This document shows positions 53,334 through 58,899 of a DNA stretch of 64,000 nucleotides, piece after piece. The DNA is taken from the NCBI RefSeq assembly GCF_030297175.1, contig NZ_AP028070.1, positions 1,798,001 through 1,862,000 on the forward strand, in the 5' to 3' direction. Under the pieces are notes generated by a model. It was not told the DNA's origin, searched no databases, and worked only from the letters and a program-made list of their open reading frames with translations. Position numbers and translations under genes: made by a program. Origin of the DNA: Marinobacter sp. LA51. Lineage in GTDB: Bacteria; Pseudomonadota; Gammaproteobacteria; Pseudomonadales; Oleiphilaceae. Positions within the stretch are counted from its first letter, which is position 1, and each line of letters opens with the position of its first letter.

Positions 53334-54593
53334 TCACACCAACCGCTGTCGACCCTCTGTCCGTCTACGGGCCTGCTCTGAGTTCACATACACAGACTCC
53401 GTAAACGTTGCGTTGGCATGGCCCAGTTCCTCACTGATGTGCCGGATATCACCTCCAGCCTCTATGGCCTGGCTGGCGCCCGTGTGTCGCAAATAATGGG
53501 TTTCGGTGCGGATCGCCAGTAACTGTCTGGCTTCGTCGCCAAACCCTTGTTGTTCCATTCGTTCGGCGGTAGCAACAATTGACTGTTCATAAATCCGTTG
53601 CACCTGCCGTTTGCCAATGGCATCTCCCTTGGCCGAAGGCAGGATGGGCGTTGATTCACCGGGAACGGGCAGGGGAGATGTGAGCCCCAGATGTAACCGC
53701 CATCGCTTCAGGTAACCCAGATAAGCGTCAGGAAGTGTGACCTGACGGGTTTTGTCGCCCTTGCCGAAGATTGAATAGATCCAGTAGGCCTCGCCATCCA
53801 CGATAGTGCGCCTGAAATCACTGAAGCTGGGCGTCCGAATCTCACCTCGGTCTACAGGCCGGGGAGCCAATTCACTGACTCGCAGGAACAGGCTTTTCAT
53901 GGTCACGATGACAAAGAGGTTGCGCTCGAATTTCGGGTTGGCGCTGGCCAGTTGGGTCAGCGTTTCCAACAGATAGGACCACTGCCAGTCCGTGAGGCGT
54001 CGCACTTCGGCATCGACGTCCTTATTGAGGTTCGGTTTGGCATTTCGGTCCCGTTTGCGAACATCAATGAGCGGGTTATGCTGCAGATAATCTTGTGCCA
54101 TCAGGTATTTAAAGAAGGTTTGTAATGCAGTTCGACTGGCATTGAGACTGGCCTGAGTCACGGAGTAGGGCGCACTGGAATCCTTCGAACGTTGGGCCAT
54201 CGGCCGCCAATCGGGGTTTTGATGCCTCAAATCGTTGCTGTCTAAAAATGCCGGATAGATACCCCGCGATATCCAGGAGGTAGGGGGCGTTTTCAAAAAC
54301 GAGAAATAACTACTTAGCAGGTCACTGTCAGCCTGGGAGAGATGCCGCTTCGCGATATGCCAGGTGTAGTTCAGGAAGCGTTGAATCTCACTTCGAAAAC
54401 GATTGTAAGTGCCGGAAACGTCGCTGTATTTGACCAGAAACCGTTGGGCAATGTGAAAGTCATCCCGATGAGTCTGTGGCAAGGCCATCAGAGCTGCTTG
54501 GAGATCCGGGTACAGCTCAAGATCTGCCTGCTCGTGAATTAGCTCGGCAGTATCGAACAAGGGATAACCGGGAAATCGAGTTCTGGTATTCAT
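53334..54593 (-). CDS. Tyrosine recombinase / integrase
   Basis: A 419-residue tyrosine-family site-specific recombinase. The catalytic set is complete: Arg238 (LFLRVSEL), Lys278 (FGKGDK), His366-x-x-Arg369 (THYLRHTGAS), His392 (LGHAN) and Tyr402 (ESVYVNSE). The N-terminal 200 residues form the core-binding domain. It is longer than XerC/XerD (about 300), so it is not the host Xer protein. The ATG at 54593 is chosen; a GTG at 54626 is possible. A perfect 11-8-11 inverted repeat lies 48 bp upstream. It sits about 700 bp from the dif array and is of unknown target. Confidence 0.92.
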   Translation of the reverse strand: MNTRTRFPGYPLFDTAELIHEQADLELYPDLQAALMALPQTHRDDFHIAQRFLVKYSDVSGTYNRFRSEIQRFLNYTWHIAKRHLSQADSDLLSSYFSFLKTPPTSWISRGIYPAFLDSNDLRHQNPDWRPMAQRSKDSSAPYSVTQASLNASRTALQTFFKYLMAQDYLQHNPLIDVRKRDRNAKPNLNKDVDAEVRRLTDWQWSYLLETLTQLASANPKFERNLFVIVTMKSLFLRVSELAPRPVDRGEIRTPSFSDFRRTIVDGEAYWIYSIFGKGDKTRQVTLPDAYLGYLKRWRLHLGLTSPLPVPGESTPILPSAKGDAIGKRQVQRIYEQSIVATAERMEQQGFGDEARQLLAIRTETHYLRHTGASQAIEAGGDIRHISEELGHANATFTESVYVNSEQARRRTEGRQRLV

Positions 54594-54640
54594 AAAGGAA
54601 ATCTTTCTATGGGACGTGAGGTGCACGAAACAATAGCAAT

Positions 54641-54670
54641 AATGTCCAATACTCCCAAATATTGGACATT
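54641..54670. other. Candidate tyrosine-recombinase core site (11-8-11 perfect inverted repeat)
   Basis: AATGTCCAATA at 54641-54651 and TATTGGACATT at 54660-54670, with the spacer CTCCCAAA. This geometry (11-bp arms, 8-bp spacer) matches Cre/Xer-type recombination sites, and it lies just upstream of the recombinase gene. An autoregulatory operator is the alternative. Confidence 0.55.
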
Positions 54671-55291: not shown

Positions 55292-55319
55292 ACTGCGCAT
55301 AATGTATATTTAGAGGTCT
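55292..55319 (+). other. Left-boundary half dif site
   Basis: XerC arm and central hexamer identical to dif; the XerD arm is replaced by TTTAGAGGTCT. The left flank (ATCCAAG then ACTGCG) differs from internal junctions (ATCCA then ACTGCG), as expected where host DNA meets the first unit. Confidence 0.8.
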
Positions 55320-55340
55320 GTTTCTTAAGGGGTTTTCGGG

Positions 55341-55532
55341 TCATGCCCTATGCGAAATATCGATCCCAAAAGTCGACAGTAGCTCCCTTTTGTGGCGGTA
55401 ATAGGTTTCCCGGGACATCAGGAAATACGGGTTGTAGCCCATCAGCCAAGTTACGTAGGTGCCGCGCAATTTGACCGGCAAACGCAGAAATGTGAGCTGC
55501 TGGTCTTTGGTCATGGTGAATTGAGATGGCAT
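55341..55532 (-). pseudogene. C-terminal remnant of filamentous-phage replication initiator (unit 1)
   Basis: A 63-residue ORF starting MPSQFTMTKDQQLTFLRLP. The stretch MSRETYYRHKRELLSTFGIDI resembles, from memory, the C-terminal end of gpII/X-, Cri- and RstA-type inovirus replication proteins (TFYRHRRELL..GIDI). Upstream the frame continues only to a stop about 14 codons before the ATG, so the catalytic Tyr domain is missing. Its stop overlaps an ATG (ATGA at 55338-55341 region), as in coupled phage genes. It may be a pseudogene or a deliberately kept DNA segment next to the origin. The family link needs a profile search. Confidence 0.6.
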
Positions 55533-55558
55533 GGCTCGTAGGTCTGTAAATTCCCGCC

Positions 55559-55968
55559 ACGGCGTTTAATCGCCGTCCAGAGAAGGCCTACAGCGGAATC
55601 AGACCGGCAATCCCGGTCTCGATATTCCCCAGGTGGAGAATCCGCCTGGGCATCCAGAGCAGGCTTTTGAACGAAAAAATCCCGCATCATCGGTATTGGC
55701 GTACCTAGCGGGATCTGAGGTCACAGGTCGAGTGTATCGGCAAAATCTCGACTGCGGTACAGGGTGTCTAACCCCCCTCGGTCTAATAGGGGGGTCAGGT
55801 ACTCCAAAACCAGCCAACCCCCCAAAGGATTTGACCCTTTGGAGGTCCACCGAAAACCCCTGAAAGCCATGTGGCACAAGGGATAGCGGGCAACCAGAGG
55901 TGCTGAGGGTCAGGTTCTGAGTCAGGCGCTGCATAAGGGGGGCACCCGCGTGCGGGGGGTTCCTTATG
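55559..55968. other. Hairpin-dense region of the unit (candidate origin/packaging signal or structured RNA), unit 1
   Basis: At least seven stems in 410 bp: ACGGCG/CGCCGT (55559-55576), AGACCGG/CCGGTCT (55601-55619), CCCAGGTGG/CCGCCTGGG (55628-55650, one G-U), ATCCCGC/GCGGGAT (55679-55714), ACCCCCC/GGGGGGT (55771-55795), CCAAAGG/CCTTTGG (55822-55842) and CATAAGG/CCTTATG (55932-55968). The same region recurs every 716 bp in units 2-5. Filamentous phage intergenic regions hold such hairpins as replication origins and packaging signal. Confidence 0.7.
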
Positions 55969-56007
55969 AGCCAAACGGGCAAAACAGGTTCCAATCCCCA
56001 GTATCCA

Positions 56008-56035
56008 ACTGCGCATAATGTATATTTAGAGGTCT
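56008..56035 (+). other. Internal half dif site, unit 1/2 junction
   Basis: Same XerC arm and centre, degenerate XerD arm. It lies inside the reading frame of the minus-strand ORF that starts at 56060. Confidence 0.8.
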
Positions 56036-56056
56036 GTTTCTTAAGGGGTTTTCGGG

Positions 56057-56248
56057 TCATGCCCTATGCGAAATATCGATCCCAAAAGTCGACAGTAGCT
56101 CCCTTTTGTGGCGGTAATAGGTTTCCCGGGACATCAGGAAATACGGGTTGTAGCCCATCAGCCAAGTTACGTAGGTGCCGCGCAATTTGACCGGCAAACG
56201 CAGAAATGTGAGCTGCTGGTCTTTGGTCATGGTGAATTGAGATGGCAT
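56057..56248 (-). pseudogene. Rep C-terminal remnant (unit 2)
   Basis: Identical copy of the 63-residue ORF of unit 1. Its TGA at 56057-56059 overlaps the ATG of the next ORF at 56058-56060. Confidence 0.6.
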
Positions 56249-56723
56249 GGCTCGTAGGTCTGTAAATTCCCGCCACGGCGTTTAATCGCCGTCCAGAGAA
56301 GGCCTACAGCGGAATCAGACCGGCAATCCCGGTCTCGATATTCCCCAGGTGGAGAATCCGCCTGGGCATCCAGAGCAGGCTTTTGAACGAAAAAATCCCG
56401 CATCATCGGTATTGGCGTACCTAGCGGGATCTGAGGTCACAGGTCGAGTGTATCGGCAAAATCTCGACTGCGGTACAGGGTGTCTAACCCCCCTCGGTCT
56501 AATAGGGGGGTCAGGTACTCCAAAACCAGCCAACCCCCCAAAGGATTTGACCCTTTGGAGGTCCACCGAAAACCCCTGAAAGCCATGTGGCACAAGGGAT
56601 AGCGGGCAACCAGAGGTGCTGAGGGTCAGGTTCTGAGTCAGGCGCTGCATAAGGGGGGCACCCGCGTGCGGGGGGTTCCTTATGAGCCAAACGGGCAAAA
56701 CAGGTTCCAATCCCCAGTATCCA

Positions 56724-56751
56724 ACTGCGCATAATGTATATTTAGAGGTCT
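56724..56751 (+). other. Internal half dif site, unit 2/3 junction
   Basis: Identical to the junction at 56008, exactly 716 bp further. Confidence 0.8.
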
Positions 56752-56772
56752 GTTTCTTAAGGGGTTTTCGGG

Positions 56773-56964
56773 TCATGCCCTATGCGAAATATCGATCCCA
56801 AAAGTCGACAGTAGCTCCCTTTTGTGGCGGTAATAGGTTTCCCGGGACATCAGGAAATACGGGTTGTAGCCCATCAGCCAAGTTACGTAGGTGCCGCGCA
56901 ATTTGACCGGCAAACGCAGAAATGTGAGCTGCTGGTCTTTGGTCATGGTGAATTGAGATGGCAT
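56773..56964 (-). pseudogene. Rep C-terminal remnant (unit 3)
   Basis: Identical copy of the 63-residue ORF of unit 1, with the same ATGA overlap. Confidence 0.6.
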
Positions 56965-57439
56965 GGCTCGTAGGTCTGTAAATTCCCGCCACGGCGTTTA
57001 ATCGCCGTCCAGAGAAGGCCTACAGCGGAATCAGACCGGCAATCCCGGTCTCGATATTCCCCAGGTGGAGAATCCGCCTGGGCATCCAGAGCAGGCTTTT
57101 GAACGAAAAAATCCCGCATCATCGGTATTGGCGTACCTAGCGGGATCTGAGGTCACAGGTCGAGTGTATCGGCAAAATCTCGACTGCGGTACAGGGTGTC
57201 TAACCCCCCTCGGTCTAATAGGGGGGTCAGGTACTCCAAAACCAGCCAACCCCCCAAAGGATTTGACCCTTTGGAGGTCCACCGAAAACCCCTGAAAGCC
57301 ATGTGGCACAAGGGATAGCGGGCAACCAGAGGTGCTGAGGGTCAGGTTCTGAGTCAGGCGCTGCATAAGGGGGGCACCCGCGTGCGGGGGGTTCCTTATG
57401 AGCCAAACGGGCAAAACAGGTTCCAATCCCCAGTATCCA

Positions 57440-57467
57440 ACTGCGCATAATGTATATTTAGAGGTCT
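57440..57467 (+). other. Internal half dif site, unit 3/4 junction
   Basis: Identical to the other internal junctions. Confidence 0.8.
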
Positions 57468-57488
57468 GTTTCTTAAGGGGTTTTCGGG

Positions 57489-57680
57489 TCATGCCCTATG
57501 CGAAATATCGATCCCAAAAGTCGACAGTAGCTCCCTTTTGTGGCGGTAATAGGTTTCCCGGGACATCAGGAAATACGGGTTGTAGCCCATCAGCCAAGTT
57601 ACGTAGGTGCCGCGCAATTTGACCGGCAAACGCAGAAATGTGAGCTGCTGGTCTTTGGTCATGGTGAATTGAGATGGCAT
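57489..57680 (-). pseudogene. Rep C-terminal remnant (unit 4)
   Basis: Identical copy of the 63-residue ORF of unit 1, with the same ATGA overlap. Confidence 0.6.
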
Positions 57681-58155
57681 GGCTCGTAGGTCTGTAAATT
57701 CCCGCCACGGCGTTTAATCGCCGTCCAGAGAAGGCCTACAGCGGAATCAGACCGGCAATCCCGGTCTCGATATTCCCCAGGTGGAGAATCCGCCTGGGCA
57801 TCCAGAGCAGGCTTTTGAACGAAAAAATCCCGCATCATCGGTATTGGCGTACCTAGCGGGATCTGAGGTCACAGGTCGAGTGTATCGGCAAAATCTCGAC
57901 TGCGGTACAGGGTGTCTAACCCCCCTCGGTCTAATAGGGGGGTCAGGTACTCCAAAACCAGCCAACCCCCCAAAGGATTTGACCCTTTGGAGGTCCACCG
58001 AAAACCCCTGAAAGCCATGTGGCACAAGGGATAGCGGGCAACCAGAGGTGCTGAGGGTCAGGTTCTGAGTCAGGCGCTGCATAAGGGGGGCACCCGCGTG
58101 CGGGGGGTTCCTTATGAGCCAAACGGGCAAAACAGGTTCCAATCCCCAGTATCCA

Positions 58156-58183
58156 ACTGCGCATAATGTATATTTAGAGGTCT
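58156..58183 (+). other. Internal half dif site, unit 4/5 junction
   Basis: Identical to the other internal junctions. Confidence 0.8.
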
Positions 58184-58204
58184 GTTTCTTAAGGGGTTTT
58201 CGGG

Positions 58205-58396
58205 TCATGCCCTATGCGAAATATCGATCCCAAAAGTCGACAGTAGCTCCCTTTTGTGGCGGTAATAGGTTTCCCGGGACATCAGGAAATACGGGTTGTA
58301 GCCCATCAGCCAAGTTACGTAGGTGCCGCGCAATTTGACCGGCAAACGCAGAAATGTGAGCTGCTGGTCTTTGGTCATGGTGAATTGAGATGGCAT
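58205..58396 (-). pseudogene. Rep C-terminal remnant (unit 5)
   Basis: Identical copy of the 63-residue ORF of unit 1. This is the copy nearest the intact dif site. Confidence 0.6.
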
Positions 58397-58871
58397 GGCT
58401 CGTAGGTCTGTAAATTCCCGCCACGGCGTTTAATCGCCGTCCAGAGAAGGCCTACAGCGGAATCAGACCGGCAATCCCGGTCTCGATATTCCCCAGGTGG
58501 AGAATCCGCCTGGGCATCCAGAGCAGGCTTTTGAACGAAAAAATCCCGCATCATCGGTATTGGCGTACCTAGCGGGATCTGAGGTCACAGGTCGAGTGTA
58601 TCGGCAAAATCTCGACTGCGGTACAGGGTGTCTAACCCCCCTCGGTCTAATAGGGGGGTCAGGTACTCCAAAACCAGCCAACCCCCCAAAGGATTTGACC
58701 CTTTGGAGGTCCACCGAAAACCCCTGAAAGCCATGTGGCACAAGGGATAGCGGGCAACCAGAGGTGCTGAGGGTCAGGTTCTGAGTCAGGCGCTGCATAA
58801 GGGGGGCACCCGCGTGCGGGGGGTTCCTTATGAGCCAAACGGGCAAAACAGGTTCCAATCCCCAGTATCCA

Positions 58872-58899
58872 ACTGCGCATAATGTATATTATGTTAAAT
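58872..58899 (+). other. dif: Chromosomal dif site (XerC/XerD recombination site)
   Basis: XerC arm ACTGCGCATAA (58872-58882), centre TGTATA (58883-58888), XerD arm TTATGTTAAAT (58889-58899). From memory it equals the E. coli dif except for the first two bases. XerC/XerD with FtsK resolve chromosome dimers here during division, so this marks the replication terminus. It also serves as the insertion site of the tandem array on its left. Confidence 0.95.

Follow-up and report, generated by a model that had tools for sequence, protein, structure and literature searches.

What kind of element would accumulate as short identical repeats at the terminus of a bacterial chromosome, and by which route would it have arrived there? 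This question is raised by the dif region of Marinobacter sp. LA51, which was analysed as part of a stretch of 64,000 nucleotides (the window). Between positions 55292 and 58871, five units of 716 bp follow each other head-to-tail (55292-56007, 56008-56723, 56724-57439, 57440-58155 and 58156-58871; no strand assigned). The array is defined by the 100% pairwise identity of its units and by its periodicity, the period being exactly 716 from 55292 and remaining exact beyond the array, on to 58890. The copy number of five is that of the one-contig assembly, and a search of this 3,774,518-bp genome revealed no further copy of the unit elsewhere.

The array, its half-sites and the terminus dif

Six copies of the core GCGCATAATGTATATT are present in the 64-kb window, and five of them continue with TAGAGGTCTGT. 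Solely the last copy is a complete dif, at 58872-58899 on the plus strand (ACTGCGCATAA TGTATA TTATGTTAAAT). In the five inner sites, XerC arm and TGTATA centre are retained, but TTTAGAGGTCT takes the position of TTATGTTAAAT, so that a GTCT-G motif replaces the XerD arm; these half-difs are found at 55292-55319 (plus strand) in unit 1 and start at 56008, 56724, 57440 and 58156 in units 2 to 5. On the XerD side, the 11-mers of half-site and dif agree in 4 of their 11 positions, which is chance level, as 24% of all 11-mers in the 716-bp unit reach at least 4 matches to the XerD arm of dif. The initial annotation of this locus, according to which five identical tandem units abut an intact dif and every boundary but the last lacks an XerD arm, is thus borne out in both respects.

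In the whole 3,774,518-bp genome there is one dif within one mismatch, namely that at the end of the array. KOPS-type octamers GGGNAGGG occur 10 times in forward and 0 times in reverse orientation in the 55 kb to the left of the array, as opposed to 1 forward and 7 reverse copies in the 60 kb to its right, and the GC skew changes sign across the array from +0.036 on the left to -0.013 on the right. Given this switch in KOPS polarity and GC skew, the dif at 58872-58899 is the dif of the chromosome terminus.

The small gene and the hairpin-rich region

Each unit carries on the minus strand a gene for a 63-aa protein homologous to the C-terminal part of G2P, the initiator of filamentous phages, and thus gene X-like (55341-55532 in unit 1; 56057-56248, 56773-56964, 57489-57680 and 58205-58396 in units 2 to 5). 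The protein matches G2P_X_C (PF05155) with 28.6 bits, above the curated cut-off of 25, its PHROG matches are replication proteins, and its AlphaFold model has a pLDDT of 90.9. It can be aligned with the first part of gene X from phage I2-2 (44.8% over residues 3-60), and within an element of Glaciecola described below the protein of this type aligns with the C-terminus of G2P (47% over 43 residues). Comparing the four full Marinobacter copies, the other three proteins are 90-94% identical to that of LA51, as against 76-79% for the element DNA. The differences between the genes fall mostly on third codon positions, with dN values of 0.007-0.050 and dS values of 0.18-0.78 over the six pairs, a pattern indicating that the gene is under purifying selection.

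The unit further holds a hairpin-rich non-coding region resembling the intergenic region of filamentous phages. In unit 1 it contains, on the plus strand, the hairpins H1 (55559-55576), which is unchanged in four species, H2 (55601-55619) with three compensatory pairs, H3 (55628-55650) with one, H4 (55679-55714) with two, H5 (55771-55795) with the loop TCGGTCTAATA and one end pair broken in two of the four sequences, and H6 (55932-55968), adjoining the right end, with two compensatory pairs. Among the 45 stem pairs of H1 to H6, a hand alignment of the four sequences, made with no shuffle control, gives 8 pairs in which both sides differ and pairing is kept, 1 pair with a change on just one side, and 1 that is broken in two of the four sequences. 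These compensatory changes support conserved hairpins but fall short of proof, four sequences being few for covariation. The non-coding strand folds modestly better than shuffled sequences (z -1.81), with 3 of 100 shuffles folding equally well. H5, whose loop presumably recalls the nick site of phage f1, is a possible G2P-type nick site, and H6 a possible packaging signal by virtue of its position.

Relatives in Marinobacter, other genera and phages

Unit DNA was matched in 9 of 124 Marinobacter genomes including LA51. One full copy, located between a half-dif and a complete dif, is found in each of G067 (726 bp), G086 (725 bp) and G114 (725 bp), the DNA being 76-79% identical to the LA51 unit. 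Decayed pieces are present in G104 (left 221 bp), in G021 and G085 (left 131 bp each), in G001 (right 36 bp, at its own dif) and in G119 (108 bp from the right half, at a distance of 37 kb from dif); in addition, the dif of G018 shows a weaker trace of the unit's right end (34 bp, 82%). Because three other species carry one diverged copy at dif, the LA51 unit belongs to an old family. Diverged copies at the same place in related genomes had been named in the initial annotation as an argument against its reading; such copies do exist at dif in these three species, but each species has just one, in surroundings that gave no alignment with the LA51 locus.

With respect to empty sites, most relatives have a dif that lacks the element, as a dif within one mismatch is present in 110 of the 124 genomes, one apiece, and the half-dif pattern in only 7 of 124. 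Thirty dif loci were examined, LA51 included, and amongst these G032 and G014 share the left-hand recombinase gene with LA51 and have an empty dif. The relics of G104 (L026 10201-10421) and G021 (L028 5825-5955) reside on contigs other than those bearing the present dif. That of G104 is also remote from the contig ends, so that dif, or the region around it, has apparently been displaced.

A profile scan of 84,980 species, each represented by one genome, yielded 10 loci, four of which belong to Marinobacter (G067, G086, G114 and G104). In Alteromonas flava, Glaciecola sp. and the MAG NORP44 the small gene directly adjoins a half-dif on its inner side, and the opposite end of the element is marked by a complete dif; the gene codes for proteins of 72-76 aa with 55-59% identity, which score 15.5 bits against PF05155 and hence remain under the cut-off of 25. 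The elements concerned are larger than those of Marinobacter. At one dif of A. flava (L036 1-6600) there is a mixed stack in which unlike units of 3202 bp and 2761 bp each carry the small gene, the former also coding for G2P, an HTH protein and a DUF4145 protein and the latter for a PF23343 initiator; two further apparent units of 215 and 295 bp each contain an N and look like joins. Glaciecola (L038) has two identical units of 3174 bp, and MAG NORP44 one of 3135 bp. The 3.1-3.2-kb units share a full G2P (PF05144 plus PF05155) and an HTH regulator. Both Glaciecola units also code for a 287-aa cargo protein (L038 5120-5983) without a clear Pfam match, the start of which recalls, by eye, nucleotide-hydrolase or TIR-like defence proteins.

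The small gene likewise occurs in phages. A terminally redundant contig of 6972 bp from IMG/VR (L041) represents a filamentous phage. Its Zot and full G2P are encoded on the same strand, and the small gene, adjoining an attP-like site, on the opposite one; L040 is the integrated form of this phage. In Dulem virus 58, an inovirus from lemur saliva, a separate homologue of 66 aa annotated as hypothetical (L053 1277-1477) lies between Zot and Rep on the opposite strand, and no dif-like site was found in this genome. As the small gene accompanies a full G2P both in the satellites and in the filamentous phage, it is an independent gene, which shares ancestry with the G2P end but is more than a broken piece of it. 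Of the two remaining loci, that of Alteromonas portus (L035) has the small gene and dif with no half-dif found, and that of Pseudoalteromonas (L039) stops at a contig edge. Within the order, a sample of 390 genomes gave five matches to the small-protein profile, i.e., LA51 and four in frames of 349-387 aa that are full initiators. In G340 (L121 5514-10418), two G2P elements of 2442 bp follow each other in tandem and show 100% identity across their overlap; these have an HTH regulator and a 91-aa frame and lack the small gene, and no dif-like site was found within the 16 kb examined.

A common feature of the half-sites is the sequence GTCT at arm positions 8-11 followed by G in place of the end of the XerD arm. 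It is present in all nine identifiable half-sites accompanied by the small gene (LA51, G067, G086, G114, the decayed copy of G104, A. flava, MAG NORP44, Glaciecola and L041), a count that leaves aside L035, L039 and Dulem virus 58, where the gene is present and a half-site was not identified. The DNA beyond GTCT-G differs between genera, and neither of two half-sites from elements without the small gene, that of Cf1c and that of a G2P element of G412, has the motif. This co-occurrence suggests that the small protein may read the half-site, the alternative being shared descent of motif and gene. In MAG NORP44, the half-site and the host dif share the altered centre TATATA, as strand exchange would require.

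A putative satellite exploiting Xer recombination

With the array, the half-sites, the rebuilt dif, the conserved gene, the covarying stems and the relatives at dif all seen directly, we put at about 0.6 the probability that each unit is a minimal, TLC-like, Xer-exploiting satellite of roughly 0.72 kb, for which we infer the catalysis, the circular form, the helper and the role of the protein. Such a satellite would combine a half-dif for attachment with a single gene X-like protein and a hairpin-rich region as used for filamentous-phage replication and packaging. A small circle would recombine with dif via host XerC and XerD across the common XerC arm and the TGTATA centre, whereby a complete dif would be rebuilt on the right of the inserted element; as a consequence, further circles, or one multimer, would stack head-to-tail and leave half-difs at the inner boundaries, dif being kept only behind the last unit. 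The five identical copies of LA51 may reflect either repeated entry at the rebuilt dif or the single entry of a multimer. An attachment site of half-dif type, a dif restored on one side and the stacking of units had already been postulated, and the half-sites and the rebuilt dif lend support to this. Copying, and packaging if any, would be provided from elsewhere, most likely by a filamentous phage absent from the LA51 genome, in which neither Zot nor a full G2P nor a further PF05155 match was found and which could still be infected from outside. Among the 124 genomes of the genus Zot is present in 29, yet of the nine with unit DNA only G001 with its 36-bp relic has it, and PF05155 is found in five, namely LA51, the three single-copy genomes and one relic.

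The features expected of an integrative mobile element exploiting Xer (IMEX) are found in the LA51 unit, which is located at the chromosomal dif, has a dif-like attachment site and gave no match to an integrase with either of its two scanned frames (63 and 153 aa); integration would be a task of host XerC/XerD. The description of the element as lacking an integrase thus stands for these frames, whereas the 63-aa gene, the hairpins and the relatives elsewhere had escaped the initial annotation. In the available part of its description, the TLC class of Xer-exploiting elements includes the satellite phage of V. cholerae, with which Cf1c of Xanthomonas is grouped, and has an attP with a nearly dif-like XerC site and centre and a degenerate XerD site, on which recombination is started by XerD and is reversible (PMC4246890). 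To that extent the LA51 unit is alike in its dif-like XerC site and centre, its degenerate XerD site, the one rebuilt dif and the possibility of several copies. However, it comprises only 0.72 kb and has neither an initiator nor a replication module of its own, just a G2P C-terminal piece. The proposed assignment to the TLC type agrees with the attP layout and the restored dif but is tentative as to membership in the class proper, as no replication initiator and, at E up to 1, no DUF3653 match was found in the 63-aa and 153-aa frames.

The neighbour of attP differs as well, this being a G2P_X_C-like gene in the LA51 unit and a DUF3653-like gene (20.7 bits, just below the cut-off of 22.4) in Cf1c, which ends 75 bp from a half-dif that itself lies inside an annotated regulator gene. 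A V. cholerae element reportedly evades FtsK by encoding the XerD-activating factor XafT (PMC9765430). In the LA51 unit a different protein may fill an XafT-like role. Because the small gene sits where Cf1c has its DUF3653-like gene, we propose by analogy that the 63-aa protein acts at attP. Activation of XerD may be considered by analogy of position only, since a profile comparison finds the small protein unrelated in sequence to the DUF3653 proteins, to which XafT presumably belongs.

The small protein would thus most likely act at attP, aiding Xer recombination where the XerD arm is missing, though an action on the initiator of a helper would be nearly as likely; for copying, a helper would be required either way. 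In the latter case it could be a gene X-like regulator that channels replication towards the short circle, either binding or imitating the initiator supplied by a co-infecting filamentous phage, the unit then being a satellite or interfering genome. We regard this as quite possible although short of probable: the alignments with I2-2 gene X and with the C-terminus of the Glaciecola G2P, as well as the likeness of the hairpins to a phage intergenic region, are what such a regulator would lead one to expect, but the small gene co-occurs with the half-site motif and stays beside the half-dif even in the 2761-bp unit of A. flava with its unlike initiator, and among the 124 Marinobacter genomes no G2P phage was found, all PF05155 carriers being elements or relics. 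Rather doubtful, in turn, is the further-reaching idea of an exapted initiator C-terminal domain that reads the GTCT-G half-arm and switches on XerD without FtsK, by which the element would be reduced to an attachment site plus an activator gene. If true, this would amount to a second, independently evolved class of Xer activators beside XafT and possibly to the smallest natural site-specific mobile element with a gene of its own.

Mobility itself might also be questioned. The homology of the small protein to the end of G2P and the decayed copies in G104, G021, G085, G001 and G119 would fit a deleted filamentous prophage at dif, of which the initiator end, the intergenic region and attP were left immobile and were amplified by unequal crossing-over. 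Such a dead remnant is nevertheless improbable in view of the same start, end and size in four species, the purifying selection on the gene together with the compensatory changes in the stems, and the presence of the small gene beside a full G2P in other elements. Little weight is likewise given to the view that the element is real but its fivefold count arose through misassembly or through recombination without meaning for mobility. All LA51 copies are identical, and assemblies of stacks can fail, as exemplified by the N-containing 215- and 295-bp joins of A. flava; against this, the LA51 genome is in one contig, and stacking at dif is also seen in Glaciecola, with identical units, and in A. 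flava, with unlike ones.

As to other systems, A. flava, Glaciecola and MAG NORP44 have elements of 2.8-3.2 kb that resemble the putative satellite in the small gene, the half-site motif and the place at dif, but possess an initiator and further genes, both of which are missing from the Marinobacter units. Engineered M13 mini variants, which are said to need a helper, are, as far as their description extends, not integrated at dif and form no natural lineage with its own conserved gene. What they have in common with the LA51 unit is a very short filamentous-phage genome, known already from the available part of that work (PMC10480500). Also known, as far as the corresponding account reaches, are stacked filamentous prophages at dif: those of the UPphi type are, like the LA51 array, arranged in tandem with a dif that is not fully repeated inside the stack, but each of them is a complete phage, about 7.5 kb long, that includes genes for coat and assembly (PMC7307601). 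The literature searched contained no natural dif element under 1 kb and no gene X-like protein at attP. A satellite as proposed here would set a lower bound on the needs of a dif-borne mobile element and would explain arrays of short repeats at chromosome termini; it also ties a one-domain protein family to a half-site motif that satellites and phages from several marine genera have in common.

Finally, a gene for a 430-aa tyrosine recombinase (53334-54626; PF00589, E 4e-10) is located outside the units, 0.67 kb to the left of the array, and directly upstream of it (region 53334-54670) there is a perfect palindrome, ATGTCCAATA-N8-TATTGGACAT. The same palindrome is present near dif in four of the 30 dif loci examined (L059, L068, L081 and L082) and, nearly unchanged, in L083; the DNA of the recombinase gene matches L083, L068 and L059; gene and palindrome are perhaps a dif-linked recombinase with its own site.
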